A DNA stretch of 64,000 nucleotides. It comes from Patiria pectinifera (taxonomy: Eukaryota; Echinodermata; Asteroidea; Valvatida; Asterinidae). Position 1 is the first letter of the stretch. Each line of letters opens with the position of its first letter. This document shows positions 7,701 through 51,840 of the stretch, piece after piece. The notes beneath the pieces were generated by a model. The model did no database searches, was not told the origin of the DNA, and saw only the letters and a list, made by a program, of their open reading frames with translations. The stretch covers positions 24,740,392 through 24,804,391 of the forward strand of contig CM057142.1 in NCBI GenBank assembly GCA_029964075.1, in the 5' to 3' direction. Position numbers and translations under genes: made by a program.

Positions 7701-10700
7701 TGCACAAAATATTTTCCCAAGTAAGATTGATGTTTGCGTCCCTTTAAGGCTCTTACTTTTGATGACCGGCTTTATCATTATGTCACATTTCATTGCATTC
7801 AATTACCATATGCTCTTAATCCTTGGGAAGTTTGAAGTTGATCTTATCAAAGAAGATATAAAACTTTGTGAGTAGAATAAAATCTTGAAAATTAAAAAAA
7901 TCTTTAAAAATCAGTCGATGAGCATCTTTTTAGATGGATTTTGGCCCTATATATCCATTATAATTTATATTATCATGATGACACTTCAGATTTTGGATAT
8001 TTGTGACATTGTCTGTTTGCCCACCAAGGTTCATGACGATTGGAGCCACATACCAAGTTTCAACCAATCAACCTCGTAGTTCCTTAGATACAGGCAGTGA
8101 CGTAGCCACCGGGGGGGCGTGGGGGGCGACCGCCCCCCCATGAAACCTTGTCGCCCCCCAGTCGCCCCCCCACTGAGATTTTGAGTTTCTAAAAAAATTA
8201 TCATTGATCTACATGACGCCATGGGCGTCAATCCTGGGGGGGGGGGGAGACAGGGGGACATGTCCCCCCACACCTTTTGAAGGGTGGGGGACACAATATC
8301 AAATGTCCCCCCCCCCCCCATTTTTGAACTCGTGTCTCATTTACAGGGCCCTATTATGAACTACAATGTATCTTTTGCTTAGAAAATATTGGTTAAAGTG
8401 GTCAGAAATTGCCTCAGATCGCACCACAGAGCATCGAAAATCCAATTTTTTTCGGGGCCCTTAAGCGGGTCCCGAACCCCACGCCAATAGCTTAGAATAC
8501 CGATAGCTGATTCAATGTCTCCAACCTCGAAAACGATGTTCAAATAATTATATTTTGCCAAGAAAATATTATTAAAGCATGGAGGAAAGTCGTAAGAAAT
8601 TGCTTCAAATCACACCACAGAACATCACACCACAGAACCCCACGCCGTAAGGGCTTCGCGCTTGCATCAGTTATGATCAAGGTATGGTGTCCCCCCTCCC
8701 ACTTTTGAGAAGCGATTGATGCCCCTGCTTGACGCCCCCCCATGAAATGTTCCAGCCCCCCCAGCGCCCCCCACTGAAAATTCCTGGCTACGCCACTGGA
8801 TACAGGCCATTAAAAAATGCACCTTTAATATGTTGTCACATGACACGTGAAGATGTCATCACAACATCACTCTTCGGGACACAATTTTGCTATAGGGACT
8901 ATACCTGTGTTAACTTTGAATGATGTATGACAAAGATGAATGCCAAAAGTGACGCACAGAAAAATTGTTTACAAAGTCTGAGATTTTGGGATAGAAGAAG
9001 AAGAGGAAGAAAGAAAAAAAACAAAGCCTTTTTTTGCAGAAAATCCAACTAGCAAATGCTCTGTGGCTTGGACGAACACATCACCCATTTGCATACATTG
9101 TCTACCTACCTACCAAGTTTCATGACGATTTGACAAATTTAAAAATCGCAATAATAATTTCGTTAAACTGAAGTAAGTGCAATAGCTTTGACAATTGCAA
9201 TTATTGTTGATGTGATGAGGACTCACACTTTTAGCTTTTGTAAATGTTTATTGACAACATTACAGTAAGTGTCATTTGTAAATTCATTTCAAAATGGTTG
9301 TTTCTATAACAGGTTGAATTCCTCAGTGACTTGTGTTCCTTACCAAATGCAACTGGACAGTAGCAATGCCATGGATCTTGTTCACAAATATCCTTTTTAA
9401 GTATTGAAATATTCATTCAGGGATTTAAACATAATGGCAAACTTTACAGTTCAGTTTCATAAACCCTCCCTCCCTTGCTGGCAATTTCAAAAAGGCCAGC
9501 CCAGCAGTCGAAATACATCCAGTGACTGTTTTTAACAGTTGAGTGCTCCCTGCCTTCATTTTACAGGATTGACTGGCTGTGATTGTTATGGAACCTGATA
9601 CACCAGTAGCTATGCTTTGATTGTAGGAGATTGATAAGCCAGCTGTTCCTATCAATTACCTGCTTTTGTCTGTGATTGAATTTTACTGTCAAAGTACGGT
9701 ACAATGTGCCTACAAGAAATATGATCTGACTGTAGGTGACTAGCCTGTGTAAAAGGCATGGCAGGGAAACACGATTGTGGGGTACTCATACAAAGGGAAT
9801 TTTAAGGAACAATGCTAACCCACTACTCAACCTTAGAAAGACGGAACCCCAGAAGGGAAATTCTATTAAAGAAAAGGGATAAAAGTACCGACCCGTATGT
9901 TAAAGTTTTGAAGAAAATGTATAACTTCCACATGCTGTCTTGGATTTGGACTAAACTTGGATGCAGTGAGCATTAGGTGGGAAGAGCATTTTTTGTAAAC
10001 TTCTCAACAAACAAATTGTGAGCCCCCCCCCCCCAAGCCAAATCCTGCGTGTGCCACGGATAACATTTAATTAAAAACCTGCTGCTTTCAATGTTAAAAT
10101 ACCATAACATGCTTTATAATGTCTGATATAACGCTGATCGTCCGATCAGCGTTGGAAATTGATACAAAAATACCACTTTTCTTGAAAATGACAGTATACC
10201 AGGTGCCATGATTTTACAGGATGCTTTACACTGTCATTCACTAACAGTCCAGCAAGGTATTTCAAAATGATTTGGTAGTTTTATTTTTTGATGTTTGCAA
10301 ATGTTGTATTTTCCCTTTAAATGTGATGCATGAACAAGGTTAAAAAAGTAGTTTGTGTTCAAAATTCCATAGCTGGAAAAGTACATGAGCGATTTGAATG
10401 ATTCTTTCACTAAATATTTTCAGACTCGCTCGCTACTAGCGGGTTGCAGACAGCTTTTTCCCGCCTCGCTCATTGCGAGTTTATCTGTTATCCGTTCCGA
10501 ATACTGACAAATCTTTGCGTGTATACACGTCATCCGACATGAACTGATTAATTTGGCTTTCATAACCTAGATCTGGAAAGCGCTACATGAACAACTTCTA
10601 TAAAAAAAAATAGGGGGCTCAATTTGTGTGTCCTTTTAATACTCACCCTGTCTAGTAGAGTGCAAGCAAGGTAGACTATTGCACAGGTCACTCTTGCGAT

Positions 10701-13700
10701 AGTTGACTGCACCAGCAAAACTAGCCTTGGATTACGTAATGGTGCACGGCACTCAATCATGAATATTTTTGAGGAATAGTAATATTTTATTTCTTGCATT
10801 ATTAGTGGTCTGAATGGGAGATCACCCCAAGAAAGGTCATTGGTGAAATGTTGGACCCCTTTGTGTATTTGTTGGTTGATAAGCTTGTTGGTTGGCTGCA
10901 TTTTGTTTATTGCATGATTGGGTCATTGGTTGGGTGTTTGGAGTAAAGAAAGGTTGGTGTTATTTGTTGGTTATAAGTAGGTTTGGTCTGTGTAATTGGT
11001 CAGTAACTTGGGCCTTTTTTTTTCTAAGAGGAAACTTTTCGATGGAAAGTCGTAGATTGTTTGGCATTTTTGTAGATTTTATAGTTATTATGTATTGTTC
11101 AGTCATTTTCGTCCTTAATACACTGTGCTTATATATGACATAGTGCTGGACTGCACTGATAATGTAGCAACGCGATACCTGCTAAATGATGCCTGTGTTT
11201 TGGCAAGGAAACCACTGGTCTCTGGCAGTGCACTAAGGTTTGAAGGTCAGGTAAGGAAGGCGTGATTCCAGACTGGTTAATTTCATAGGGAGTTCGGTGG
11301 TTTATAATGCCTTGGTAATAGTTTGATAATTCCCAGCTTTTTATTGACATGGGACAGATAAATGATTAGCTCTTAAAATAATTTGTCTATCAAGATGAAG
11401 TTGCTTGCCTTGATTTTATGACCATTGAGTGGTCGGGCACAACCTGACCACTGTTTAGATTTGTTCTCATTAATCTTCTTTCTTTCTTTCCTTTTTTTTT
11501 CCGGACAATAATTCTTCGTGGGTTTCTCCTAAATGGTATATGGTATGAACTTGTAACTTTCAACATATATCGACCCTGATCCCGAGTGGTGCATAATACT
11601 CTGACGTCATGATGACGTCATCGGGTGTCAAATTACAAGCGATTTTTGTGGAAAAGGTGACGATCTGCTCTCACCTGGAACGCTTGAACAAAAAGATCAA
11701 TTATAGTCCAACCTTGTAATCAGTAATTGTAACCTTGTAATTTTGTCATGTACGTGAACTCGCTTGACCATTACTTTCGGGTCTACCAGAAGGTCAAAGT
11801 TGGGTGAATTCAAAATGAAGGCATCAGCCTGAAATCAAAACAAAACACGATTTCTTCCAAACGGTTTACTGTATGATCATAAAACCTAGTGTGAACTTGA
11901 ACCATGTTACGAAGATGTTATAAATTCTGTTAAGTCATCATGATGTCATCAGGTATCAAATTAAGAGCGATTTAAGGGTAACTTTTTACAAAATAGTTTG
12001 CGCTGTATCTTTTGACCTAAATAGAGTATTATGTTTGCTTTTTTTTCCTTAGGTTGTAGACTACGCAATGAAAAATATTTCTTGTCCCCGGACACAAAAC
12101 CACTGGACCTTCACTTCCGGTGTTACAGGAAGTGCAATAAGACCGAATATAACTCAAAAGTGGAAGCATTTTACCACTCCCTTATAGATTATGAAAGTGT
12201 TAAGTAAGGAATGCCAGACACAAAAAAATAACAGTACAATGACGACATCATTCGAAAGGGTGGCCCCTCCCTAGTGGCTCATAAAATAGTGTTTTCTTTC
12301 ATTAATTTGAAAATCATCCGTTCAACTTTTACCAAATCGCCCCTTGATATTTTTTGATTAACCACAGATAAGTTAGCAAGGTTTCAAATTCTTGACATCA
12401 GACTGGAAGATATTTCAAGGAGAATTTGAAAACGATCATATTTAAAATTTAATTCTATCATTTGATCCATGTCGTATATCTTTGTAGCCCAAATAAAGAT
12501 ATCCATTTCAATGTCCACCTTTTGCTTCCAAATACTGTGACGTCATCAAACCAGAAGTTAGGTGTTACGAAAACATACACTTATATTTTCCATATTTTCA
12601 TATGCTATTTAGCTTCACAATGAACATTTATCCACTCTCAAACATAGGAGAAAACCAAATTTTAAAGATGGGACCTAGGTTTTGCACAATTTTCCTTGCA
12701 GTTTATTATATTTTAAAGAGTTAAGGATGCCAATAAACTTATTTAATTTACAAAACATGTTTGAACGATTGGCAGCTAACTATCCAGTCAACCAGAGTAC
12801 CAGACAGGGTTGGCTGATTTCAATCACTTTGATTTAAATCACTGATTTAAATCGCGATTTAAATCAAATGATTTTTTAAATAAAAATCACTGATTTAAAT
12901 CTTTTTTTTTGTAAAAATCTTATTTTTGGCAAAATCAATTGATTGAGGGTCATTTTAATCATTTAAATCAACTGATTCCACTTAATTACAAAGTGTAAGA
13001 TATTGTTAACACATTCAAACACCCCTACTTCATCACCATCGACTCAATTTAGGTTTTGCATAATTACACAAAATCGTTGTTTTGATTAAGTCAAGAAATG
13101 AGTTTAAAAGCTTTTCTTCAAAATTTTTATTTTTAAAGAGAGCACACTCATGTTTGCTTTAATCATTCCTTGATCTGTGTACAGTAATATTGTGAATCAA
13201 CTGTGCTCGTTTAGGCAGGCTTACATGAACCATCAAAAGGTGTAATAAAAGTCCATATTGATAGTCTTATTCCTAACGTTTCTCCCTACAAATTTAGATT
13301 GAGATTTATTTAAAACCTTTTAAAGATGTAAGGCCTGATTTCTGTTCTCCACCTTCAAACACTGCAAGTTACACAAGGATCAGTGCTGCCGGTTTTGAAA
13401 TTAGAAGCATTTTAATGAAATCAACATGCCCATGGAGAACTGTTGTATTTTTTGTATACTACAGGTACCATAAATCAAGTTTTCATTCATATCCACACAC
13501 AACGTATCTCAGCTGTATCAATCAGGCACTGTACCTTTAAAGTGTCTTCAGTATCAATGTACCATTGAACCAATGATGTAGACTACATGTAGAAGAAGTC
13601 AAGTGATTTTTTAAATCACTGATTCAATACAATTTTTGTCAAAAGCATCAATTTATTGAGTTTTGTGGATGATGGGTATTATAGGAACCTGTAAACTCCT

Positions 13701-16700
13701 TTGTGGTGGGTATGAGGGTGCATGGGGAGATTTAGACACATGTTTAGACATATCAATATTTTGAAAGTTAATTTTTTTTTTTTAATCTGATTTAAATAAA
13801 AAAAGACTGACTTTTTTTTATTTATTTTTTTAGATCAAAAAATCGCCAACCCTGCAACCAGATACATTCTATATTGCCGCTTAGCCAAGATCATTCAGTC
13901 ATGTGAATCAACACTAGCAAATGCTAGGAAGTTTAAGCAAAAAGTAAAAGCATTGACTTTTGAGTATATGCTTTAAGGAAAAGCAAATGCTTGAATCCAT
14001 ACAAATAAATGTTTTCTTTTACTGTTCAGCATTCACTAGACAGCATTAACATTTTAATTGTTAGCTTTTGCTCTTGACTAGAAGTGTTTACTTCATTTGG
14101 TATGAATAAAAAGCAGTAAATGCTTCAGATTTCAAGTATTTACTGGTGATTTTTCAAGGCTGGGTTGGGCAACCTTGAAAATATAAAGCAAATACTTCTG
14201 CGAAAAACTGCTGTATTTATTAATATTAATTGCTTAAAAATTGGTAGTACATGTAAAAGCAAATGCTAGTTTTAATTCATACAACCATTGTTCCATGCAA
14301 CATATATTGGGGCAGACGCCAGTTTTTTTTAAGTGTTTGTGTAACCTGGGAAAGTGACACATGTTGAAAATTTGCAGTAAAGGATTGCATGTAGCCAAAC
14401 TAAAATAATCTCAGGATCTTTGAAGGGAAAGGTCACAAGAAACTGGATTAACCCAAACGATCCCCAACCAGCCAAACTCGCAACATCAGGGTTTGTTGGA
14501 ATCTGTTAGGATGAGTACTGCACTAGTAAACTGACTATGCTTTACGTGGGATTAGGCATACCACAAATACACGGAATCCAACTGTTTATGTGTACAGTTT
14601 ACCATGGTGTTGGGATTTGCTTGGATGAGGAAGGTTCCTAGGGAGTGGTGAATGAAGACACTATACATAAATCCTTAGATTCAAACAAAAAAAGACCCCA
14701 AAACTTTTTTTTAAATATTTTTATTTTATTTTTACGAAATTTCAAGACTCATAAGAAAGATTTTAAAACAACCGAAGCAAGAACTGAAACCAGGATTGAA
14801 ATTAAAACTTAAGACCAAATCCAAAATGCAAACTAAAAGACACCCAACGCAGTGGATCTTGAAGTTAAAGCACAAATAAACTCGAAATCAACTTGCTCCA
14901 GCAGACAGCACCCAAGCAGTGCAGATACTCCTAACTAGAACTATTTCATACAAAAATCGAAGTGAAAATGCCATGTCAATATGATACCAAAACAATTTTT
15001 CCAGCAAAGCATTTTTTTAAAAGTCTTCAAGGTCCCAAATTGGTAAAATGTCTACTGTAATGTAGCCTGAACAAATGTTATAACAATTTGGAGCGTACTT
15101 TATTATTTCCCTGAAATTCATCAAGAAATGAGACAAAATGTATATGACTGAAGCAGATTTTGAAACAAGCAATGTGAGTGAGACATTCCTCTTTCTGCAG
15201 CTGACTGTGTACAGCTATGAGGGTGGCCCATGCTACCGATGTCTTTATCCTAAACCTCCCCCTCCTGAGACAGTCACAAACTGCTCCTCTGGAGGCGTTC
15301 TTGGTGTAGGTAAGTAAAAACTTTTGCACTAGAAATGCAGTTCCATGAAGAAGTGGACAAAGTCCAATTTTTCTTTTAGAAATTTGTTATATCTTCAGAA
15401 CTACAAGTATTACAACAATAAGTGTGGTATCAAATTAAAGGGGTCAATAAGATCGTTTGTTTGATTGGTGTTACAGTGAGATGGAATGTAGTAAAGTGTG
15501 ATTTTTTGAATTTTATTTCTCCGAGCTTCGGTTAGGTTCGGCTTCGGAAGTGCATATATAATGTACATGTCCATGGTACAATGTTTAGGGCTATTCGGCT
15601 ATTTTCAGTTCGGTTTGGCGGTTCGGCTGCAGCACTAGTTTAAGACCGGTTGGAGTCTGGATGGGTGATAATTACCCAGGGTAATTATCACCCATTCTGG
15701 AGTGCTGATATCACCCAGTCTGGAGTGCTGATAATTACCCAGGGTAATTATCAGCACTCCAGACTCTGGATGGGTGATAATTACCCAGGGTAATTATCAG
15801 CACTCCAGACTCCAAACAGTCTTAAACAGAGTGTTTAATACCGACCAAGCACATATTTATTCCCATTCATAAATACCTTTTCGGTAAAAAAATCTTATCC
15901 TGTATAACTTTCCAGTCTATATTTGAACAACAAGTAGCAATGTCACATGTTTAGTTTTCTTAGAAATCTACTCTAACCTCTGGGTTTTCATCACAATAAC
16001 GTGAAATAAAGGACCTTATTCTGACTTAAATTTTTTTTTTTAAGAGGTCGTCTAGTAGTTTATTGGTTGTTGAATTATCTTGTTTAGCCCTTGATTGTGT
16101 AGCTCAGTCATATATCCTTTTTCAGTGTCTGGTCTCACATCAATGTCCCTGTGAAATTTAAGGTAAGTACTGTGTCAGAGTTCCAAGGTTAATTTTACTG
16201 AATTTTTACTTCTGATTGGTCTTTATTTTGTCCTTCATGCAGTTCCTGGGATCATTGGATGCTTTCAGGCACTGGAGGCATTGAAAATTGCTCTGGGTAT
16301 AAGTGGTAGGTTTTCCCTTATTACTCAGAGGTACAGACAACAGTCATTAACTGTTGCAGATCTCATGAGAGATACAAAGTTCAAAAAATAATATTTGGTA
16401 AAGAATATTACGAGATACAAATCATAAAAGCAGTGTTGTAGTCGAGGCCACAACCTCTGAAGCCGAGGCCGAGGCCACAACCTCCGAGGCCAAGGCCGAG
16501 GCCACAACCGCTAAGGCCAGCTATTAAAACATGTAATAAAATATAAATCACTCAAACAAGGCTAATATTTTGTTGGATTTTTAAAACCTTTTTATTTGAA
16601 TTCACGCCATGATCTTCACATTATTCATGGCCATTGCGTCCAAATCAGATGATCTGAGAATTTTGATGAACTGAGCGATATCATGCATGCACGTTGAAAG

Positions 16701-19700
16701 TTAAAGTGCAGGATTATCAGGCTTTGCGTTGCGCATGCATGCGAATAACGGGTTGGTTCCCTGCCATTATCGCTTTGGCTAATGCTCACTCATTGTGACG
16801 TTCACTCGTTCAGGGAATTTCCAGCGTTACTGGCTAATGACGTCATTGGCATGACCGGGGAGATTCGCCAGGAGCACTGAAACGAAGCCCCTGACTTAGA
16901 CGGCAGTTTTCGGGGGTTTTTGCCGATATTTTCAATTTCCGTTCAAATTACAAAGAAAAAGACACCTATGACTGTAGATTTATCCGCAATACAGCAGAGG
17001 ATCCATGCAAAATGAGAAAAGAATCAAGTCGAACAAGATAAAAAGATATATTTTTGGTGCAACTCCGTGTGTGTACAAAAAAAATTACCCGGTTCATTGA
17101 CATACACACACGTGCCGTGCCTGCACTATGGCCGTATCATAAATTATGTGTGGACAAAATCGCATCCGAGGATCATTCTGAACAGCTGAACAGAGCGTCT
17201 CGATTATTAATGCCGAGTAGAACATCCGACAGCCCTTGGTCTACGGACTGTACTGTGTACATGCAGAATGTAATACTGACCCGGCGGCAGTTATGTCCTA
17301 CTCAGCATAAATAATCGAGGCGGCCTGTGATTGGCTGTTCTTATCTTTGGATGCGATGTTGTCCCTGCATATGATACGTGAGTACGTTCAATGTAATGCA
17401 TTACCAGTTTGTTCATTCGTGCGTATCTGATTTGTTTCACGGAACCCACTGTGGCAGATTTTTGAAGGTTTGATATGGTAAAAACTTTAAATTAATTGAA
17501 ATAGAAAATACATCAAAGTGGGCGGCCTCAAGCCGGTCTTGACCTATTCGTCAAGTCCGGAACACTCCAAGGCCAAGGCCGAGGCCTTGCACTCTGAGGT
17601 CAAGGCCGAGGCCATGAAAATCGGCCTCGAGGCCGGCCTCGAGACCTCCAACACTGGCTAAAAGACCAACAAAATAGACCGCTTGGACTATAAGTGTTCT
17701 CATCGAGGAAAGGTTTTGTTCTTTAAAAGTTGAATTTCATGAAAATGAAGTACAAAATGTCCACTGCAGAGGAGCAAAGACCTGTCTTGAGAAGGGCACT
17801 GTATGCAGGGAGTCACAGAACAGTGTTCCAAGAATGACAATAATTGTTGACATACACATCACTGACCATTTTTTTTAATGATTCCTTCAGTTTCCTTCAG
17901 TCAGAAGCTTCTCCTTGTTGATGGATTAGATGGCAGTCTTCGCACCATCAAACTGAGACCAAAACAGCCCGGCTGTGCTGTCTGTGGCACCCAACCCTCG
18001 GTCAAAAATCTCATCGATTATGAACAATTTTGCGGAGCAAGTGCCACAGACAAGGTAAACAAATTTTTTTTGGGGGGGGGGTCATCATGTTGGTGCTAAG
18101 GTGAGGATTCTTTTCTTGACCAAGATGCAATCACTGCCGTGGCATATGCATAAACAGTATAGGGTGCTTCCTCACCACTCACAAAGTATGGATGACTTAT
18201 TTTATTCGGAATGCACAAATCTGCACATGCAGTATTTTCCCATGAACGTCAGGTGCCATGGACAATGTGTTCAAGAGTCCCTCCCAGTCATGCCTCCACA
18301 TTTTCTCTTTGTAGCAGGGTGAGGTGATACATGTAAACAAAGTCTATAAGCCCCTAAGTCCCAGTACTCTGTACTCGTACTCGGGCAGCAGAGTACTGGT
18401 ACTCGACCTGTCAAAATTGTACTCGATCATCCAAGTACTAGTACTCAAATAGCAGTACTAAAAAAAAATGGTATGGTTTGACTTACCACGGCCTTATTTT
18501 ATTATCGATACTTTCAATTGGAAATGGCTGATTGGCTTGCAGAGAAGTCAAAGTTTCCTGATTTTTTTCTCTGCATGTTCCGACAAACACATTTAACAGC
18601 TAGCCGTAAGTGGGTCTGTTTATCCGTCTGAGTAGGCCTGGGCCAAATACGCACAATGAACCATCTGCCGTATGGCCATTTTCGGAAAAAGGAGTACATT
18701 GTACTCGGAGACCTGTTCTTGTACTCAGAAGTACAAGTACTCTGTACTAAGTTAGTAAGTTGTGGAATAATTAAGTTTTGATTTATTTGCAGGATGACGA
18801 GAATTATCAAAGGGCAGACTGGTACCTGCCCTTATCAGTTTTGATAACATAAGGACCGCAGCCTGTCTAGTTGCAGGTGGATCCTTTTGTACCCTAAATA
18901 AAGGGCTTTTTTTTTTAGTGTTGCAGGTGTATGAATTAGAAAACATTCATTCCTTTTGTTAAAAATTAATTACTCAAGGATCAAATTGGTTGGGGAAAAA
19001 TTGAAGTTGAAGTGCAAGGACCTTACATCTTTGAACATTGATTGACTTGTTTCCCATGGTCTTTTGTATACCTCTATTTGGTTGATTCTCCCAATCTCCT
19101 TGTTGACAGTGTGTGAGCCTTCATCTTCTCTCTCCTGAAGACAGAATCAGTGTTGACAACTTGTCATCGATACTTCAAGAGGAAAATGTGGTCACGTCAT
19201 TAGTCTTACTGGATGTCAGACCAGCAGTGGAATTTGAAATCTGCAGACTGCCTCATTTCATCAGTATCCTTTTTTTCATGCAGAGGTCAATGGAGCCGCG
19301 TTGTTGAATCAGACTGTTTGGATTTGACAGTTGTTTTTTGAGATGACCATTATTACTTGAGCCCGAGCCAATTAAAGTAGCTTAACATTCAAATATTGAG
19401 CTTCTTTAAATGACATATTGATGTTAGTTGAATTAGGAAGCCAAATTCATTCCATAGAGCCTCTGAGTGAAAATACCGTGTAGTAATTGTATGTATTGAT
19501 CAGTTGCGTAAATCCGTGTTGGCAACTGGAGGAGGGGGGTGGGGAATGCCAAAAAATCTTAAAACTGCCCACCTGTGGAAATTTGAAAAGTGGGGGGGGG
19601 GGGGGAGGACAGACCACATGACACTAGGGGGCGCTGTATATTTCCCATATCCTTGTATCAAAACAGTACATTCAAAGCTTCTTTACTGTATGTTCTCCAT

Positions 19701-22175
19701 TTTTTCATAACTTTAATACATTTGACTGTTGGAGATTATGCCCTTGGTATTTAGGGTGGTATAGGTGAGGAAGGAATCACATGCTATTGTCATAAGCAAC
19801 TACACTTAATTTTCTGTGCTTAGCAAATGTATGCAACTTCTTGAAATTTGCTTGTAAGCCCAGGCTAACAGAACACTAATGAATGTTGTCAAAGTCTGTC
19901 CCTTATCTTTGTCTTATGTGACTGTACATTCCAATCCCCATTTTTAGGTGATGAAGGTTTTGCATTTTGATTTCTTCTAGTTTCTTGTACTTCTTAACAA
20001 TCCTTACAGATATTCCAATCAATGATTTAGGGAAATCAGATTGTGTGGATCTCATCAGAAGAGAGGCTGTCAATAGAGCTGACACTGGGGAGAAAGCACA
20101 AGGTACAAGCTCATATGTTGGGAGCTTTGTTTAACCCACTCACAGGACATAGATCCTTATAGGTGAGGGTGGACAGCTAGGAGCGCTCTACTTACATCAC
20201 CTTGTCTAGTTCCCAGACTTATTTACTTCAAACACAATGTTTCTCGAGTCTGGAGAGTTGAATAGACCTTATAAACTAAGGCAGAGTTAGAATGCAACTT
20301 TTTTTGTATTGCATGGATAGGCATGAGTGAACCTTTCTTTACATTCATTATTGATACATGTAACTTTACAATAACAAAGACTACCCTCTGAGACACCGCA
20401 ATGCATAAGGTCCATAGTTAAAGAGGTTGTGGAATGCTCGAAGACATTTCTGTCATTTTTCGGGTATATGTAGCCTAAGGTGTGATGAAATAAAAATGAC
20501 TATTGTGTCTGTCATGAAATGAGTACAAAAGGTACTTTTGAGAGCTGTTTTTCAGGTCCTGTTTCGACCTGAACGTGCAATTCGTGTAAAAGTCGTCGTT
20601 GGGGGCAGCAAACAAAACATAGTAAATCGTGACGTAATAAACAGGACTCCCGATGCAGCGTAGTATAAACGAGTCCTGTTTATTACGTCACGATTTACTA
20701 TGTTTTGTTTGCAGCCCCCAACGACGACTTTTACACGAATTGCACGTTCGGGTCGAAACAGGACCTGAAAAACAGCTCTCAAAAGTACCTTTTGTACTCA
20801 TTTCATGACAGACACAATAGCCATTTTATTTCATCACACCTTAGGCTACATATACCCGAAAAATGACGGAAATGTCTTCAAGCATTCCACTACCTCTTTA
20901 AACCCATCGCAACCGTTGAAAACTGGTGTTCAAATGAATTGATGTTTCACTGGCTGACATAAACCCGCCCACACAATTGCCCTGTAACTAATGCTGCAGC
21001 TGAAATTAGCCGACCATGGGACTGCCAAACCTAACTGAACTGAATTGAACTGAATTGTTCAGTTCAGCAGCTTGGAAATGTGATTGAGCGACCACATAAA
21101 AGCACTGGCAGCAATTTGAAAAAAATCATGCTCAGATGTTATGAATCCAACTATGAATTATTGAAATAAACAAATGAAAACTGAAAAATATGTGCACAGA
21201 AAAAAACATTCCACTTTCGTCCACGACATATTTCACGCCGCATTGTGGTTCACAAGTAGGACAGCTGGTTCCCAGCCCTTTTATCATTCCAGCATCTGTA
21301 TTTGGCGGGAACCAGTTTACACAGTTGCTATAGGACAACTTGGAGGTCAAAACCTTACGGGTCACATCGTGAAATAATTGTTTACCTAATTTGAAATCTG
21401 GTTGGCAATGCTTCATGCTCTCTCAATCATCAATGTAAAAAAAGAAATTCAGAGTGGTAATTTTTTGAGCATTTTTGACATCCAAAGGTTGTTGAGAAGC
21501 ATTCGGGGTAAGATAAACTATGTAAACAGCTCAATTTTCCTTTTGAATGTCACGCTCGAAAGCAGTGGCAGTCTGTTGTGGCTAGGTTAATTCTGGCACG
21601 TGACTCAGTCCTGGAAGGTGCCTTAAAAGTGAAGTTTTTGCAAACGATTAACGTATGTAAATCTGCAGCAATGCCTTTTATATTGCACTTTGCTGCCTAT
21701 TGGTATTACCCGATTGGTATTTTAAAATGTCTGGATTGAACCTGAACCGAGCCAGGGCAAAACGCAATACATTGTATTGGATTACTTGTAGTTAAATATT
21801 ACTACTTGTTACTCGCAGTACCACCCTAAACCACCCCTGCACTGTATGGTCCCTTGGATTCATCACGGAATAAATCCACTGTAATACAATGTACTAGTAC
21901 AAGTGCTAATGGATCACTTGGTTACTTCAAGTTGACAGTCGATTACGACGATTAGAGACCTCTAGTTTTTGAATCCATGTTTTCCTAAGGGTAATTTGAC
22001 TCTATTTTTGTTCGTTTTGATAGTGTTGGTGATTTGCAGACGAGGCAATGACTCGCAGATTGCTGTGAAGTTGTTACAAGAGAAGCTAGACTCTTTTCCA
22101 GCAGTGATTAAGGACATCAAAGGGGGATTAGCAGCATGGACTAACCACATTGATCCCAACTTCCCCAGATACTAA
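1561..22175 (+). CDS. MOCS3: MOCS3/UBA4: adenylyltransferase and sulfurtransferase, 11 exons visible, N-terminus off window
   Basis: Exons: 1561-1702, 4668-4760, 6407-6527, 9313-9387, 11133-11250, 15201-15309, 16243-16305, 17891-18054, 19110-19263, 20010-20102, 22024-22175. All phases join without a break (1284 nt, 427 residues plus stop). Visible in order: [12 protein letters not shown] (E1 N-terminal signature), nucleotide loop GAGGLGCP (about residues 61-68), [16 protein letters not shown], zinc pairs CYRC (194/197) and CAVC (269/272), TVTNC with the E1-type cysteine (211), and a rhodanese domain with LLDVRP, CRLPH and active-site Cys382 in [10 protein letters not shown]. Human MOCS3 is 460 residues, so about 30 residues are missing, presumably on an exon left of the window. 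By family knowledge it adenylates the C-terminal Gly of MOCS2A and URM1 and then thiolates it, for molybdopterin synthesis and tRNA wobble-uridine 2-thiolation in the cytosol. Every key residue is intact, so the gene looks functional. Two introns carry U12-type signals. Confidence 0.95.
1933..4461. mobile_element. Candidate old hAT-like element with CAGTGTTGTAGT ends (copy 1)
   Basis: Left end CAGTGTTGTAGTAGAATCC and right end (reverse complement) CAGTATTGTTGTCAAGTCC both lead into short repeats of TCACAAGT / ACTTGTGA. No convincing 8-bp duplication remains. The span includes the G-rich array at 2838-3400 and may be composite. Confidence 0.4.
2838..3400 (+). repeat. G-rich minisatellite (GGGGTAGGG-type), G-quadruplex prone
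   Basis: Dozens of imperfect copies of GGGTAGGG, GGGGTTGGGG and GGAGGATGGGG, with longer blocks repeated (GATATAGGGATTGGAGTAGGG occurs in variants near 2970, 3055 and 3120). The complementary strand is C-rich and reads as a spurious Pro/Thr/His protein. Confidence 0.85.
4668..4760 (+). CDS. MOCS3: MOCS3 exon b (nucleotide-binding loop)
   Basis: Acceptor TTTTTTCAG, donor GTACAT. Encodes [19 protein letters not shown] and then [12 protein letters not shown], which contains the Rossmann GxGGxG ATP-binding loop. It is entered and left after codon position 1, matching its neighbours. Confidence 0.93.
5006..6339. mobile_element. hAT-like nonautonomous element, GAGTAC subterminal array (copy 2)
   Basis: Begins CAGTGTTGTAGTCGAGTAC and ends GTACTACAACACTG. 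Flanks AAAAATGC and TAAAGTGC agree at 6 of 8 bases. Both ends carry dense GAGTAC / GAGTACGAGTA repeats. It sits in the MOCS3 intron between exons b and c. No transposase frame was seen. Confidence 0.75.
6407..6527 (+). CDS. MOCS3: MOCS3 exon c
   Basis: Acceptor CACATCAG; donor AG|GTTGGT, which is weak at +3 to +5. Encodes [20 protein letters not shown] followed by a Ser-rich stretch. DYD and NLHRQ are the adenylate-binding strand and helix of the E1 superfamily. The split Arg codon (AG|G) is completed by the next exon. Confidence 0.92.
6579..7244. mobile_element. GGCC-TIR MITE (copy 2)
   Basis: TTA|GGCCAAAAAAAATCTTCGGTT at the left, then TTCTGGTATGGAGCTTGCCC. The right end has ATACCAGAAACCAGAGCC followed by a G-run and GGCC|TTTA. 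It is larger than its relatives, with unrelated DNA inside. The right boundary is approximate because of the G-run. Confidence 0.6.
8095..8798. mobile_element. hAT-like element with perfect TSD GATACAGG
   Basis: CAGTGACGTAGCCACC at the left mirrors GGCTACGCCACTG at the right. Identical GATACAGG lies at 8087-8094 and 8799-8806. A 120-bp relative lies at 52769-52888. Removing the relative-matching parts leaves a second element nested at 8220-8727. Confidence 0.85.
8220..8727. mobile_element. Second hAT-like element nested in the first
   Basis: Left end CATGGGCGTCAATC and right end (reverse complement) CAGGGGCATCAATC form the TIR. Flanks CATGACGC and CTTGACGC match at 7 of 8. The host element continues uninterrupted across the junction when compared with the short copy at 52769-52888. 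Confidence 0.75.
9313..9387 (+). CDS. MOCS3: MOCS3 exon d, followed by an ATATCCTTT donor
   Basis: Acceptor TATAACAG. Encodes [20 protein letters not shown] and then DLVH plus two bases of a Lys codon, matching the human region LNSAVECVPY...ALDLVRRYD. There is no usable GT donor. The exon runs straight into ATATCCTTTTT, the minor-spliceosome 5' splice consensus. Confidence 0.88.
9388..11132 (+). other. MOCS3 intron with minor-spliceosome signals and AT...AT ends
   Basis: Starts ATATCCTTTTT. A TCCTTAAT branch-like motif (11112-11119) puts the candidate branch A at 11118, 14 nt before the intron end. Last bases are CTTAT. Only this join restores HKYDIVLD in frame. Also inside: hairpin CGCTGATCG/CGATCAGCG near 10132, and 10355-10640, which resembles 2300-2440 with an extra segment at about 10425-10550. 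Confidence 0.75.
11133..11250 (+). CDS. MOCS3: MOCS3 exon e
   Basis: Encodes [20 protein letters not shown] and then [19 protein letters not shown]. The DCTDN and [10 protein letters not shown] motifs are diagnostic of this family. The start is fixed by joining to the previous exon to read HKYDIVLD. No AG lies at this boundary; the intron ends in AT. The donor GTAAGG is a normal major-class site. Confidence 0.88.
11425..12700 (+). mobile_element. Dispersed element with GAGTGGTCGGGCA end (forward copy)
   Basis: Starts near GAGTGGTCGGGCACAACC. Shares long stretches with 33600-35165 (TTTCTCCTAAA, CAACATATATCGACCC, CTTCACTTCCGGTGTTAC) and, inverted, with 36130-37450 plus 40776-41140. Repeated GATGACGTCATCA words occur. 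No protein is discernible and boundaries are approximate. Confidence 0.55.
12805..13854. mobile_element. hAT-like element, CAGGGTTGGC TIR, GATTTAAATC array
   Basis: Left CAGGGTTGGCTGATTT, right AAATCGCCAACCCTG. Flanks GTACCAGA and CAACCAGA agree at 6 of 8. Both ends carry repeated GATTTAAATC palindromes. No transposase frame. It lies in the MOCS3 intron between exons e and f. Confidence 0.75.
14459..14642 (+). repeat. Dispersed repeat, copy 1 (second copy 41336-41521)
   Basis: Contains GTTAGGATGAGTACTGCACT, TTTACGTGGGATTAGGCATA and GAGGAAGGTTCCTAG. The second copy in the same orientation is similar across the whole stretch. No coding frame and no clear ends. Confidence 0.7.
15201..15309 (+). 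CDS. MOCS3: MOCS3 exon f (first zinc pair and catalytic-type Cys)
   Basis: Acceptor CTTTCTGCAG, donor GTAAGT. Encodes [20 protein letters not shown], then [16 protein letters not shown]. CxxC is the first half of the structural zinc site, and TVTNC carries the cysteine proposed to form the acyl-disulfide or thioester intermediate. Confidence 0.94.
15638..15827. repeat. Compound hairpin (multi-palindrome)
   Basis: Outer ends GTTTAAGACCGGTTGGAGTC / GACTCCAAACAGTCTTAAAC. Inside, the palindrome ATAATTACCCAGGGTAATTA recurs three times, alternating with TGGAGTGCTGATA / TATCAGCACTCCA, so several alternative cruciforms are possible. Confidence 0.8.
16243..16305 (+). CDS. MOCS3: MOCS3 exon g
   Basis: A short exon with acceptor CATGCAG and donor GTAGGT. 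Encodes [20 protein letters not shown], the conserved helix after the catalytic loop. Phases match both neighbours. Confidence 0.92.
16431..17656. mobile_element. hAT-like element, GAGGCC subterminal array (copy 3)
   Basis: Begins CAGTGTTGTAGTCGAGGCC and ends CTCCAACACTG. Flanks CATAAAAG and GCTAAAAG match at 6 of 8. Both ends carry GAGGCC / GGCCGAGGCC repeats. It lies in the MOCS3 intron between exons g and h. A spurious 86-codon frame inside has no recognisable domain. Confidence 0.75.
17891..18054 (+). CDS. MOCS3: MOCS3 exon h (second zinc pair)
   Basis: Of two nearby CAG acceptors (ending 17890 and 17900) only the first keeps frame. Encodes [20 protein letters not shown], the CAVCG zinc pair, and [13 protein letters not shown], which leads to the rhodanese linker. 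Donor GTAAAC. Confidence 0.93.
18358..18755. mobile_element. Decayed GAGTAC-array element fragment
   Basis: Repeated GTACTCG / GAGTAC words at both sides (18362-18460 and 18690-18750) around a core. The core words CTATCGATACTTTC and GGCCATTTTC also resemble 6055-6070 in the 5006-6339 element. Termini are not intact. Confidence 0.55.
19110..19263 (+). CDS. MOCS3: MOCS3 exon i (rhodanese N-half), followed by a U12-type donor
   Basis: Acceptor TTGACAG. Encodes [15 protein letters not shown] and later [20 protein letters not shown], the rhodanese N-half with LLDVRP. The next bases are GTATCCTTTTTTT, an exact U12-type GT donor. Joining to 20010 gives the family-typical INIPI. Confidence 0.92.
19264..20009 (+). 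other. MOCS3 intron, U12-type GT-AG
   Basis: The donor GTATCCTTTTT matches the minor-class consensus, and TTCTTAAC at 19991-19998 is the branch-site candidate (A at 19997, 12 nt to the AG). No long polypyrimidine tract adjoins the AG. The rest is unique-looking sequence with a G-run near 19590. Confidence 0.75.
20010..20102 (+). CDS. MOCS3: MOCS3 exon j
   Basis: Begins after TCCTTACAG and encodes [20 protein letters not shown] followed by [10 protein letters not shown]. Donor GTACAA. A TTCTTAAC branch-site match lies 12 nt upstream of the acceptor, fitting a minor-class 3' end. Confidence 0.9.
20422..20897. mobile_element. Palindromic MITE with TTAA target sites (Kolobok/piggyBac-like)
   Basis: TTAA (20418-20421 and 20898-20901) flanks a near-perfect inverted repeat with arms over 200 bp. 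Left AGAGGTTGTGGAATGC mirrors GCATTCCACTACCTCT. The loop is about 30 bp (near CCCGATGCAGCG). A 76-codon minus-strand frame is a palindrome artefact. Confidence 0.85.
22024..22175 (+). CDS. MOCS3: MOCS3 terminal exon (rhodanese active site, stop)
   Basis: Acceptor TTTTGATAG. Encodes [20 protein letters not shown] through [18 protein letters not shown] and stop TAA. Cys382 (visible numbering) is the persulfide-carrying rhodanese cysteine. The C-terminal aromatic after FPR matches the human FPQY end, so the coding region is complete at this side. Confidence 0.95.
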
Positions 22176-26807: not shown

Positions 26808-27149
26808 TAGGGTTCCCATGCACCCCCTGGATATATTTTTTTAACCTACTTTTTTGTAATCCTCAAGGTGTCTCGTGAACGAATTTTGATGTTCTCAAGA
26901 TCAAATATTGTCCCATGGGGTTCATTTGGCGGCCATCTTGGATTTTGACGAAAATCGGTTATTTGACATAACTTTTGAACCAGGCATTATACCGTTAAGA
27001 TGAGTGAGCACGTACGTCTTAGGGGTAATTTGGGCATGGCGAATCGATATAACGTAATTATTTAATGATAGAAACAAGTTAAATACCTTAAAACTTATAA
27101 TTTGCACTCGGACTCTTGCAAAACAATAGACTACATGTATTCTAAACTC

Positions 27150-28003
27150 TTATCTCTCATGACAAACTACCGTCAGTGGGTATCAAATGTCATCATTCCC
27201 TTGCCTAAGAAAGGTGACTTATCTCTCATGACAAACTACCGGGGTATCTCACTCATGTCCATAGCTGCAAAAGTTTACAACAAAATTCTCTTGAACAGAA
27301 TACGTTCTTATACAGAGCCACTTCTGAAGAGCAACCAAGCCGGCTTCAGATCAGGACGTAGTTGTGCTCAGCAAATACATATCCTGAGGAGGATTATGGA
27401 AGGTTTCAAGGAATACCAACTCCCACTGACAGTCACATTCATTGACTTCAAGAAGGCCTTCGACTCCATTAACAGGACTGTTATGTTTGCCCTATTGCGA
27501 CATTACGGCATCCCTGAGCCCTTGGTTAACGCCATATCCAAGTTCTGTACAACAACTCAAGCAGTGCAGTCATGGTAGATGGAAGTATATCAGATCCATT
27601 CCAAGTAACAACTGGAGTTCTTCAGGGCGATGTTCTCGCTCCCTTCCTACATGTATTTATCATAATTGTTGACTACCTGTGGAAGGCGGCTTCGTCACAG
27701 CTCTCTAGGACTGCTACAGCAGCTGTAGATCTTGGTCTTACGATCAGTGTCACCAAGACAGAATAAATGACCCTAAATTGCAACCATCAGCCAACACTTG
27801 AAGTTTATGGCAGTCCCATCAGCCATGTGACTGACTTCAGATACCTGGGATCCATGATGGGATCCAGTGCTAGTGATCTGAAGAGGCAAAAAGCTCTGGC
27901 CTGGTCAGCATTTTGGAAATTGGAACACCTTTGGAGGAGCTGCTCCTTCCCCATTGAAGTATCCCATTGTATAGCACAGTGTCTCACCATTAGCCTCTCT
28001 TAA
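27150..28003 (+). pseudogene. LINE reverse transcriptase fragment, catalytic motif deleted
   Basis: Translates to IIPLPKKGDLSLMTNYRGIS, a GFRSGRSCAQQIHILRR block, FIDFKKAFDSI (palm motif A with its first Asp) and GVLQGDVLAP (motif B). It then jumps to GLTISVTKTE and the FRYLGSMM block. The stretch that should hold the YADD box (motif C) is missing, one in-frame stop ends the first block near 27576, and a 24-bp segment is duplicated (27149-27172, 27219-27242). This is a dead non-LTR retrotransposon; the motif set resembles RTE/CR1-type LINEs, but the clade is uncertain. Confidence 0.75.
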
Positions 28004-30540: not shown

Positions 30541-31004
30541 AGATGTGGTGTGCTACACCAGCGTCAGCCATGACGTAGTGACGCCGTAGTAGAAGTCCTA
30601 TTCCTGTGGAAAATTGGAAAAGACTAAAATGTCAGTAATTGTAATGGGCACAAATTATGAGGCATGAGTACACAAAGCAATAGTGAAGAGGAAATTGTTC
30701 TAAAAACAATTTTCATCTTGAGCGAGAAGTGGTAATCAATGACATTTCATCGCCACACTGAACGTCTAGACATCATAACTCATTATAATCAATTTCCTGA
30801 TGCTCTTCCACTATTGATCCTCCGCTTCCTCAACAGTTTTCTGCAGCAAGTCAATGAGTGAAGGGGATGGATAGGGCCGCATCACCATGCATACTGGCAT
30901 GATTAGACCGCAGTATATTTATGCTATGATTGTTGGTTCACTATCACCATTTCCAGCTAATACTACAAGATTAAGCCCACAGCTTAATTTGTCTTCCTAT
31001 GATC

Positions 31005-31372
31005 CCTAGTACAAAAGTTATGTCAAATAACCAATTTTCTTCGAAATCCAAGATGGCCGCCAAGATGGCCGCCAAATCATGCAAATAATGATTTCAATCG
31101 ATTCCTCTCGCCCAAATTACCCGGGAAAATGTGTTCATTTGTCTTACTATGATGCCTAGTTAAAAAGTTAAGCCAATTAACTGATTTTCGTTGAAATCCA
31201 AGATGGCCTCCAAGATGGCCGTCAAATTATAAAAATAACACTTCCAATCGATTCCTCACAACCAAATTACCCCGTAAAACATGTTAATTTGTCTTTCTAT
31301 GATGCCTGGTTCAAAAGTTATGTCAAATAACTGATTTTCGTCAAAATCCAAGATGGCCGCCAAATGAACCCC
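31005..31372 (+). repeat. 150-bp tandem repeat, about 2.5 units
   Basis: CCAAGATGGCC recurs at 31048, 31198 and 31348, with TATGATGCCTAG/TGGTTCAAAAGTTA and CAATCGATTCCTC in the same relative positions. A single related unit lies in the left arm (26915-27060), inverted. Confidence 0.75.
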
Positions 31373-42200: not shown

Positions 42201-45200
42201 AATAAAAATAAAAATAACTTATTTATAAAATGTAATTACATAGTTTTTTGCTAACACCTTGTCGACCTTTAAAATAAAATACCTTGGGTTCTCCAAATAG
42301 AGTGATGGTAAGTCATATTGGTATCTTGTGCAGACCTACTTTGCGTGTGAAATTTAACGATTAGAGAAATTTTTCAGGCGAAAGTTTGTGTTCTATGCAC
42401 ACCCGCAGGTAATTGGTTTTGCGGCTGTCTTTTCAACGACTGTTTCGACAAGCAATAAACACAAACATGAAACAGCCATCAAATTGGTAATTTTGATGCG
42501 TCTTGCTGAAAGATGCGTTCAGTGAATTCTGTCTTTCTTGTCTTACATTGTAGCTAGGATCGATCTTAGATTGGGACTCGTTTTAAGTCCTAAGAGTTGT
42601 AAGATAATGTAAATCGGCCCCTAGTCATAAGTCTATTTGAGATATGGCAGACACAATAGGAAGCCTCTCTCTGATTTGGGTCAATCCTTTTGTATTAGGG
42701 TTGTCAGTTCCATGTCGCGTAAATGAAGACACCCACGGAGCTGGTGCGCTGGTGCGTTCGCGTGCAATCACATACGTTGCCGGCCAACCCGGCCGTGTGC
42801 AGTCGGCCATATTTTATTCTCGTTCCAGGGCCACAACTGCCACTAATAATATGTAAGCTGATGTCTTCACTGCATGGCATATAATTTAACACAAAATAAA
42901 TATCTTGTAAACTACTGATCCAATATTGATAATTCAACAAGGAGTTTGTTCTTTTAAGAAACTCCAGCTCCAATGCTCATCAGGAAATTTGACATTTAAC
43001 AACATTGGTGCTGGAGTTTCTCAAGCTAGTTTGTTCCATTTTCCAAGAGTTTTCATTCGATGCTAAGGTTTTGGCATTTCGTGTTAAAAGGAATTTCTCC
43101 TTGACAACCCAATTACCCAAACTATTTCTAGAATTAGAAGGCAGCCCGTGTGCACACGGGCTGCCTTCTAATTCTAGAAGTATACCCAAACCAAATAGCG
43201 CCCTCCTATTGTGTTTGCCAAATCTTGAATGGGCTCATTCCGTCGCGAGGACAACTTCTTTTTTTCCCCCAAAAATGTCAAGTCCTACTCCGATCCTAGA
43301 TTGAGTATTAACTCAGCCTACAGAATGACTGTGGCATTTGGTGTGAGGCACATATCATTACACGAAACAGTCGCTGATTCAGCACGAGGCCGACTTGTTT
43401 TTCTGTGATAATAATGTGACACACGCACTCGACGGATCAGCCAAGAAATGTATTGGCAGACACATTTAATTGTGAGCAGTAAGTTTATCAGAATATTTTG
43501 GGTTTTTTTCAAAATTACCGCTTGTTGGGAACAATTTAAGGGGTCTTATGGAATGTCATGAATGTGTGGATCTATCCAGGGTAACTGTCTTTCTCATTGT
43601 ATTCTCTTTACCAGGTTTTTTGGGCCTTTTGTCCTCCAGGGTATGCAAAAAAATGCATACCGTGTGTCAGTAAATATAAATGTGTAGTCAGTACATGTAT
43701 GCCTATGCGATGGAGCGCTAGTACTACTGTTACGCCCCAACTATGGTCAGGAGTGTGAGTGACCACTGATAAAAATAGCTGAAAACAGCTGAAAAAGGTG
43801 CAAAAAAGCTGAACTTCGGAAATCTCCTATACTTTTGTACACAGCAAGTGAGGGAAAAAGCTGAAAAAAAGGTGAAATCCAACACACAAAAAAGCTGAAA
43901 TCAGCTTTAAAGCTGAGATTTCACACCCCTGTATGGTATCGGTCCCAACTATAGTTAGGACGGTCCCAACTGTGGTTTCACAGTTGGGCTGGCCCAACTG
44001 TAGTTGGGAGTAATCAAGGGGGCCCATCTATAGTTGGGCCACTCCAATCTTTTTATTTTGCGGTGTCCCAACTATAGTTTACATTGATGTACAACTATAA
44101 AACATTCCCTACAGCTCTGATACATGTCCGACTTTACTTGGGACCATTGACATTAGCTATGGGTGGGGCCCATCTATAGTTGGGCCACGCCAATCTTTGA
44201 ATTTTGCGGTCCTAACTATAGTTCACTTGTTGTACAGCTACCGTAACATTTCTACAGCTCTGTATATATACACGTCTGACTTTACTTGGAACCATTGAAA
44301 TTAGCTATGGGTGGGGCCCATCTATTGCTGGGCCACGCCAATCTTTGAATTTTGCATAAAAAATGTTGCTGGACTATAAAACCCAGGTGGACAACTCATC
44401 CAACTAGGCAGGACCATGTGGCCGGCCAGACAGGGCTCTGGAGTGCTCTGAAACGTGCAAAACTAAATCAGGCCCACTTTACTCACAGTTTAGCCAGCAA
44501 ATTTCTCAAAAAAATCCACTGGGGCAAAGAAAATGTCCTCAGTATTTCACAAACCAAGTTTGCAGACTCAATTCAATTTTTAAAGGAGACTTTTCTTCAA
44601 TAGTTTGCACATGAGAGGGAAGTCAAGTGATTTCAAAATGGGGCTAAATACTAGACTGGTACATGTCCAACCATGCTCCAACTATTTGAAAAGACTGACT
44701 TCTTTTCAGTGTCAATAGTCTGGTGGCTTGACTATGGAGAAATGTGTAGTAAATTGAGACTAGTTCCCACTTCATGCCACATGTTTCTTAAATTCTTTTG
44801 GCATGGTTGATTAATGCAGTACTGAAGCTGTGTTGGACTGGTTGTTTTAGGTGCCAGTCTATTTTCTTGTTTTGCATGTTTTCAATACTTAAGTTTTGGG
44901 ACTCTCATACACAGTATTGAGAGTCCCAAATTTTTGGACTAGTGGCCGGCCAGCCCTGCGGCATACACATGCACGACGAATACCGGTACATTAGCTCTAC
45001 TGAGTGGAGCGCTGAATTACGGGTACCCCTCCATACTAGCGCTCCACCGATTCACCATACTTTGGTAGCACCATCACAGTAGCATAGTCAAAAACCCACG
45101 CGAGGACAAAAAGACCCCAAAAAAAACGGTAAAGAGATTACAAATGAGAGAGACAGTTATCCTGGATTGATCTATACATTCTTGACATCCCATGAGACCC

Positions 45201-47740: not shown

Positions 47741-47771
47741 CACTGTCTTGTTCACACAATTATTCGTTGAC

Positions 47772-50140
47772 CTGTCAAAAGAGGGCGGTATCCAAACGAA
47801 CAGCCGCAGCCGGCCGGCGAGCTATGGGCGTGTATGGTACTGCAACCATAGAGCTATATTAAATTACAGGGGTGAGGTTTCATTTAATTTACAGTGGTGC
47901 AAATAACAAAAGCGGTATGAGTATCGTGTACTATTCAGACAGAAATGTTTGATTTTTGAATTTTGTTTCAGGTGATTACTGAGGTACACTTATACCTTAG
48001 TAAAATATGGAATGAAAAACTAAACAAAACTAGCCTCACTCTTGTCACATCTTGCTGAATAATAGAATTAGCTGTTGCAAACTGCTTACCAACCAAAAGG
48101 ACCTATGGTATAAATGCAAACAAATAGTTAGTGGCCTGACGTTTCGACCCTAGCAGAGTCTTTCTCGAAGGCTGAAAGCAGAGTCTTTCTCTTGCTGGAT
48201 AGTTAGTTGTTAAGCAGGTGCAAGCATTTACAACTTCTTTCAATTTTGCTTCAAAAAGCTGATCTCTTGCGCTTATCTTGCAGATCTTGCACTATATCTT
48301 GCAGATGTTTCAATGTTAAGGTCATGGCAAACTCTTTAACATTTTTAGGCTGAGACTGTGTAGTTACCCTGATCTGCAGTAAGTCTAGATTTTTCGCAGT
48401 AAAAAATGCTGCTTATTCAGTAAGAGTAATTCATAGGCCTACAACTCACTCTTATCATTTGAAAAAGATGCCAGATACATAAAACTTTTCTTTTGTTGTG
48501 TATTATTATTTCAAACTTAAGGAAAACTCGTGAAGGAGTCGATACTGCAATTTTTACCGCACACCATAATGGATATGAACCTTATCGATATTCGTCGTCA
48601 GGCTTGAAAAGATTGACAGATGTTGCAAACACCAGTGTTACAACTTTTAAAAATGCACGTAACCAGGCATCTTTTTTTCAATTTCAACGAAAAGTACCGA
48701 ACATATCAAAACGACTTTTAGCACATAGTTGAATCGTTATAAGGGAAACAAACCCTGAAAGTTGCATGAAGATACGGTCTTCCAAACGGGAGAAATTGCT
48801 TTTCAAAGATTTCGCCCGCGAACATCAACATGTCTGTGTGCATTAAATTGCTAGGGACACATACGAAATATTTACGTGGACAGAGATAATAGGTGGCGGC
48901 CGCCGGATAATAAGTGGCGGCCGCTGTACCAAAAAGAAGAAGAAATTTTCACGCAAACAAAAAATATATTCAGACTTATTGAGTGGCACGATCCGTCTTC
49001 CGTACATGGACCTATTTCGAATTCCTTTGCTTACTTTTCACATAATGCTTATACTGGTGAATTGTAATGACCAAACTTACACAGCTGGAAGCTCCGGCGA
49101 ATTTGGATGTCCGTTTGTGCAATTTTAATTTGAAAGCCCTATTGTTAAAATTGCATGATTAAAATGTGAAATCGCATGCTTCTAATGTGAAATTGATTGG
49201 TGTTTTTAGGTAATTGAATGTTGATCTCAACGTGCATTCAAATTCGTGCGAAGATGTGTGATTGGTCGCCAATTTCGGGCCGCCAAATCTGCTTACTTGG
49301 CCGGGAAAACCTATAGTTGACATCCTTTTTTGTTTGGTTATTACAAAGTGCACTTCTTTAAACATTTTTAAAGTTTCCATGCTTTTCCGGACTACTGAGT
49401 ACATGTGCTTTTGCTATGATGTCATTTCAGGAAGACAATGTTCAGTTTAGGGGTTTTCTGTTTAAATTGTGAACCCCAAATTAGGCTCATTGAAAACATT
49501 TGGGAGAAAGAGTTTCACTGGCTTACTGCCATGTACTTATACAAAAATGAATCACCAAAGAAAGAAATTTAGGACAGCAAAATGTTCATAATTCTAGCAA
49601 TAGCCGTATAACTTTGAGTTTTTTTGCCCGGGATAACATCACAGTTTTGCTCATGAATTTGGAACTTTGCATTAGCATAAAAGCCGAGAAGGCACCAAAA
49701 ATACCCTTCAAAACGATAAAATAAAACTAAAAACTAAGGTTTAATGGGACACAAAGATAAATTTTCAACGATTGCAATAAAAACAATTACTGTGCAGGGC
49801 CCTAAATAAGTGTTCAGACAGACAAAAGCGGGAATGAACCTAAAGGTTTGCAGTTGTTCGTCTGATGGAAGTTTCCCAAGAAAACATTTGAGAAATTTAC
49901 CCAAGTGATGGTACAACCATAACCAAACATATGCCCCGGTGTCTTGCACGTCAAGGGCTCGCTGGGTGAATCAGCGATGAATTAATAAAAAAAATTACAA
50001 AAACAGAACGAAAATAACAGTCAACAAAGTTAAAAGATTAATTAACATATCGACATAAAGATGGCTCATACATTTTGAAACATTCAAGCAAGTAGAAAAG
50101 ATCAACAGTAAAAAAATCCTTTCTCTTTTCATTTCATTAT
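47772..50140. other. Intergenic or 5' region of the PH gene; no gene recognised
   Basis: Contains GACGTTTCGACCCTAGCAGA with a nearby repeated AGAGTCTTTCTC (48130-48200), a style seen in dispersed repeats, and a duplicated GTGGCGGCCGC (48892-48928). No supported exon. An upstream PH-gene exon or promoter may be here. Confidence 0.35.
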
Positions 50141-51110: not shown

Positions 51111-51840
51111 CCAACCTCGTGCCCCGTGGGTACGATCTTGCAGCGCCATGTTGTTTCCCATCATGCCTTGCGCGATCGTAACCACTGATCTCTATATAGA
51201 GATCAGTGATCGTTACCCCTGGAATTGTGTAATTTAAATATACCAAAATACGGTACATTATAATTAGGGCTGCAGTTTATCCGTTTTACGTGCCGACGCC
51301 ATCTTTAAAATGTTAAAAATTGTGATTTTGAAGAATCAATCCTTTCAAACACAACGTTTGGACGTTGTGTTAATGAGCAAAGATTTGTATTAAATGTACG
51401 TACCCCCTTCGTGCCTTTACAACCACAGATACAGGTTTTTTTTTTGCGAAAAACGCGGCTGACATAATCCATATCGTACAGGCTTCGCGACTTTTGAATC
51501 ATAATTTTTTTTCGTACGTGACGTTACGTGCAATGCTAAGCCATAGATATAGAACTTAAAATTTTTAAGTTCTATATCTATGTGCTAAGCACGCGGGCGC
51601 GCCCGGCGTGCAATCTTCGAAATGCCCGCGCAGTACTCTGTGAATAGCCATTCAGTGTCATTTACGTCATCATCACAGCCAGGGGTTAGTGTAAGGAACG
51701 AGCACGCGCCCTTGGAGTCGAGGCTGCTCTCGGTCAGCCTCGACTCCATGGGCACGTGCGCATTCCTTCACTTAAGATCGCGCAAGGCATGATGGGAAAC
51801 AACATGGCGCGGCAAGATTGTACCTATGGAAACGAGGTTG
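51111..51840. repeat. Cluster of nested hairpins with about 65-bp inverted ends
   Basis: 51115-51176 is an inverted copy of 51775-51838 (CATGTTGTTTCCCATCATGC / GCATGATGGGAAACAACATG). Between them: a perfect 26-bp palindrome CACTGATCTCTATATAGAGA... (51183-51208), a 41-bp hairpin (51542-51582), and a hairpin of about 40-bp arms GTCGAGGCTG/CAGCCTCGAC (51692-51775). Confidence 0.8.

Follow-up and report, generated by a model that had tools for sequence, protein, structure and literature searches.

The nearest described relatives of the intron analysed here are the AT-AN (A-type) minor introns, whose ends were surveyed in 2023 in a study by Larue and Roy. In that survey (PMC10639083), non-canonical ends account for ~3.8% of conserved animal minor introns, and AT-AT is the second commonest of them in animals, behind AT-AA, and is almost absent from plants. 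A first-pass annotation of the present locus had called such introns rare, which is right in absolute terms for AT-AT minor introns but passes over their high rank among the non-canonical ones. Human A-type introns also include AT-AT members; 92% of the A-type introns are affected by depletion of CENATAC, and the class has higher basal retention (PMC8280824). Such natural AT-AN introns indicate that the last base may vary in U12 splicing (PMC8280824), and every pairing of first and last base, sixteen in total, has been assayed in the NU-AN context, as related in PMC2831892. Non-canonical ends often bring reduced splicing efficiency, according to PMC3584512. Among open-licence main texts we found no paper on MOCS3 with minor or U12-type introns, or as an intronless gene, and the name UBA4, looked for in PMC10639083 only, has no occurrence there.

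Our window, a 64,000-nt stretch of the Patiria pectinifera genome, contains a gene for the sulfur-transfer enzyme MOCS3/UBA4 with an intron, ending in AT rather than in the AC or AG customary for the minor class, that we compare to these systems. Its relevant features are:

1561-22175, + strand: MOCS3/UBA4 gene, 11 coding exons located, the start-codon exon not among them
9313-9387, + strand: upstream coding exon, ending in phase 2 after CAC AA
9388-11132, + strand: candidate AT-AT minor-class (U12-type) intron, 1745 nt
9388-9396, + strand: U12-type 5' splice site ATATCCTTT, an exact match to RTATCCTTT
11112-11119, + strand: U12-type branch-site motif TCCTTAAT, near the 3' end
11131-11132, + strand: AT that closes the intron, its last base 14 nt from branch A 11118
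11133-11250, + strand: downstream coding exon
9387/11133, + strand: predicted mRNA junction, CACAA joined to ATATGACATAG
11138-11139, + strand: canonical AC that competes as 3' end, ending 21 nt from branch A 11118 and 7 nt downstream of the AT end

The joined coding exons give a 427-aa open translation with no inner stop and with a stop codon ending at 22175. In a Pfam search with this translation, the ThiF adenylation domain (PF00899) covers residues 35-270 (1.4e-80) and is followed C-terminally by a rhodanese domain (PF00581) at residues 311-418 (3.4e-10), both above their cut-offs. ThiF followed by rhodanese is the arrangement by which we recognised MOCS3/UBA4, and the gene identity proposed in the first-pass annotation therefore stands. 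A 100-residue stretch spanning the AT-AT junction and the next exon matches the ThiF family on its own (7.7e-31), with uba4 (6yub) as its nearest solved structure. The C-terminal part of the translation is closer to human MOCS3 (3i2v, 9.9e-21) than to uba4 (6yub, 2.8e-14).

The exons were located with a profile of prokaryote homologues (the best 80 of at least 567 confirmed), run on 2,877 stop-to-stop pieces from both strands. This search returned ten + strand exons, from 1555 to 22172; weak matches at 31670, 5427 and 17391 (minus strand) were set aside (E 0.19 to 3.2). The eleventh exon, at 20010-20102, was recognised by eye from its likeness to human MOCS3 and fits the human rhodanese-domain structure 3i2v. 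Upstream of 1561, inspection by eye found no start-codon exon. A search of the 613.5-Mb assembly gave 13 first-look candidates, of which 11 matched, every one of them within this gene. MOCS3/UBA4 has one locus in the assembly, and we rejected a paralogue or retrocopy on these grounds.

Eight of the ten introns in the gene are GT-AG without a U12 donor. The intron at 9388-11132 has, as the first-pass annotation had described, an exact U12 donor at its start, a branch-like site 14 nt from its end and, in the genome sequence, a terminal AT in place of AC. Measured from the other candidate branch A, at 11117, the distance is 15 nt. These values are slightly beyond the 11-13 nt reported as the branch-to-end optimum of U12 introns (PMC3584512). 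By eye, the last 22 nt of the intron, GTCCTTAATACACTGTGCTTAT, contain no polypyrimidine tract. The U12 branch consensus is approximately TCCTTRAY, with C the more frequent last base; the motif here ends in T instead of the commoner C.

To judge these motifs against chance, we used 100 dinucleotide shuffles of the window. RTATCCTTT is expected 1.31 times per 128,000 both-strand positions (1.0e-5 per position) and was observed five times, four on the + strand and one on the minus strand. Exact copies stand at two of ten exon ends of MOCS3/UBA4; by arithmetic from the shuffle rate, two or more would occur by chance with a probability of ~5e-9. The shorter RTATCCTT at + strand positions 6712, 16112, 19647, 22327 and 34287 was discounted, as none of these lies at any located exon end; the one at 16112-16120 is an exact ATATCCTTT inside the intron at 15310-16242 and is probably there by chance. 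TCCTTAAY showed no enrichment across the window (3 observed versus 5.59 expected from the shuffles), so the evidential value of the branch motif lies only in its placement 14 nt from the intron end.

The choice of junction 9387/11133 was examined by enumerating all in-frame joins that pair an exon end at 9330-9439 with an exon start lying at least 60 nt beyond it and no farther than 11239. These 65,872 joins encode 1,641 distinct stop-free peptides, all of which were scored against the 80-homologue profile. The highest score, 153.6 bits, belongs to HKYDIVLD, the very peptide that the join had been said to restore. Two runner-up peptides reach 151.2 and 150.6 bits without known splice signals; because the nearer is within 2.4 bits of the best, the profile alone does not separate close neighbours, but profile and donor together do. 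The same HKYDIVLD can be produced by five equivalent placements of the intron (AT-AT, TA-TA, AT-AT, TC-TA and CC-AT), which give identical mRNA, so that reads alone cannot fix the dinucleotides and the donor motif has to. Only the placement at 9388-11132 has the U12 donor; the one at 9390-11134 is also AT-AT but lacks it.

Other pairs of dinucleotides did less well, their best joins scoring 144.5 bits for AT-AC, 143.1 for GT-AC, 141.0 for AT-AA, 133.0 for AT-AG, 111.7 for GC-AG and 110.4 for GT-AG. The last is 43 bits below HKYDIVLD, and a nearby GT-AG or GC-AG join was rejected on these scores. Read-through past 9396 was also rejected, as it meets an in-frame TAA immediately. Among the 80 homologues (the best of at least 567), the junction columns show Y 60 times and F 14 times, then a D that 77 of them share, without any gap; uba4 keeps this D, preceded there by W.

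The first-pass annotation had called 9387/11133 the only in-frame junction, which proved too strong. An AC at 11122-11123 maintains the frame and would add three residues, as had been pointed out, and an AT at 11140-11141 maintains it with three residues fewer; both have worse branch distances, ending 5-6 nt and 23-24 nt from the branch As, respectively. Going downstream from branch A 11118, the A-N dinucleotides are an AT ending at 1 nt, two ACs ending at 3 and 5 nt, and then an AT ending at 14 nt; those ending at 16, 18, 21 (AC) and 25 nt (AG) lead to early stops. The AT at 11131-11132 is thus the first A-N dinucleotide farther than 5-6 nt from the branch As. The AC at 11138-11139 was rejected as acceptor because it gives an immediate stop (HK*), and the AG at 11142-11143, joined to the U12 donor, because a stop follows after five more residues.

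The gene also contains another U12-type intron, absent from the first-pass annotation:

19264-20009, + strand: second U12-type intron, GT-AG subtype, phase 1, with donor GTATCCTTT and a CAG end
19991-19998, + strand: branch motif TTCTTAAC of this intron

It ends TTCTTAACAATCCTTACAG, its branch As lie 12 and 13 nt before that end, and its branch motif is one base different from TCCTTAAC. The join across it reads RLPHFINIPINDL, which aligns to RLPHALHIPLKHL in the human MOCS3 rhodanese domain (3i2v). The U12 donor core TATCCTTT is common to both introns, as is a branch motif close to the 3' end, but the second has GT-AG ends and interrupts the frame in phase 1 rather than phase 2. One MOCS3 gene therefore holds two U12-type introns. 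U12 introns cluster within genes in 21 of the 21 genomes tested in PMC7367187.

Like the sequence anatomy, the reading frame and the homology, genes for the minor-spliceosome machinery were observed directly in this genome. Searches at the Rfam cut-offs gave at least one match each for U12 (132.6 bits), U11 (108.1 bits), U6atac (139.2 bits) and U4atac (83.0 bits) snRNA; these counts are lower bounds, as 40-49 candidates were scored per search. The U12 snRNA of this genome has GTAAGGA, whose AAGGA complements TCCTT in TCCTTAAT. Pfam CCDC84, which corresponds to CENATAC, the factor that serves AT-AN minor introns, gave 13 matches, spread over three places of a single contig. Control genomes gave 0/14 matches in each of the U12, U11, U6atac, U4atac and CCDC84/CENATAC searches.

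The three CENATAC places (contig C22, L098-L103) are at 11399514-11413292, 11348732-11362405 and 12179933-12191804. The first two are 95.8% identical across one aligned stretch of 14.6 kb, and one match in the second has two internal stops; the third lies in inverted orientation and shares 85.7-97.5% identity with the other two in pieces of at least 700 bases. Segmental duplication could account for them, and so could haplotypes left unmerged. It is a highly speculative thought that having three CENATAC-like places might let this genome carry an unusually large number of AT-AN introns.

Taken together, we consider the stretch from 9388 to 11132 to be a real U12-dependent intron of the AT-AN subtype, ending in AT and yielding an intact MOCS3 product, with a probability of about 0.88 on the sequence evidence. 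The splicing event, the roles of the factors and the way in which the end is selected are carried over from work on other species. U11 and U6atac would read the donor ATATCCTTT, U12 would pair with TCCTTAAT, and the 3' end would be fixed by distance from the branch site together with an A in the next-to-last position. If, as we propose, the rule is to take the first A-N past a steric minimum, the AT at 11131-11132 would be the end used, and junction 9387/11133 would then give the intact MOCS3 protein. That the AT end descended from AT-AC by one C-to-T change is plausible and a fair guess.

The alternative that deserves most attention, though we think it unlikely, is an error of assembly or base calling at 11131-11132, or a minor allele there, in which case the true or common end would be AC and the intron an ordinary AT-AC one. 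Base 11132 alone distinguishes the two cases; it sits in a short TA run, TTATATATG, and the assembly has no second copy of the gene for comparison. The rest of the gene, however, bears no signs of error, with all 11 exons open. Use of a different 3' end, either AC 11122-11123 or AT 11140-11141, seems to us quite improbable. Frame is maintained at both, but the AC is only 5-6 nt from the branch As and its join with the U12 donor scores 144.5 versus 153.6 bits, while the AT, besides its distance of 23-24 nt, would remove the Y-D pair, whose D is kept in 77 of the 80 best homologues among at least 567.

We give still less credence to an intron of the major class (U2) whose ends are unusual, or to a GT-AG pair nearby. 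The major spliceosome does remove some AT-AC introns, but the U2-type AT-AC introns of sodium channels all have G at +5 (both from PMC2831892), where this intron has C, and the best GT-AG join is the one 43 bits worse. Hardly credible at all is a decayed gene copy in which the odd acceptor is mere damage: we found no point in its support, and the single genome locus, the open exons and the two domains above their cut-offs all speak against it. A further reading, which we regard as highly speculative, sees the acceptor region as a switch. The AT end at 11132 would make MOCS3, whereas slippage to the canonical AC 7 nt on would bring an immediate stop, and slippage to the AG 11 nt on a stop after five residues; the output of MOCS3 would then report the 3'-end fidelity of the minor spliceosome.

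No RNA genes were found in the window (0 Rfam matches at gathering, 0 tRNAs). Beyond 22200 there are 42 reading frames of at least 95 residues, 10 of which were scanned with Pfam. Reverse transcriptase matches, together with weak endonuclease-reverse transcriptase ones, mark LINE-like pieces at 27072-27578, 51690-52298 and 54911-55926. At 47465-47821 on the minus strand, the start of a PH domain scores at the Pfam cut-off (25.1 bits) and perhaps belongs to another minus-strand host gene. Tandem arrays occupy 30984-31363 (~150-nt units, 2.5 copies) and 44019-44355 (~148-nt units, 2.3 copies).

The observation made in the first-pass annotation is confirmed, and its reading of the intron class, gene, junction and AT-AT ends is supported by the sequence. 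The value of the locus is as a clean candidate AT-AT case in which a canonical AC just downstream would break the protein, offering a natural test of 3'-end choice. We would expect a gene finder limited to GT-AG and AT-AC to misjoin MOCS3 here. Compared to canonical AT-AC U12 introns, the putative AT-AT intron has the same donor, branch motif and anatomy, but ends in T, not C. With AT-AN (A-type) minor introns of the AT-AT subtype it shares the U12 donor, the branch motif, a branch-to-end distance that is short, if slightly over the optimum, and N = T, and it presents no difference in kind from the AT-AT introns in PMC10639083 and PMC8280824. As this kind has already been described, the intron of MOCS3 would be one more member of it.
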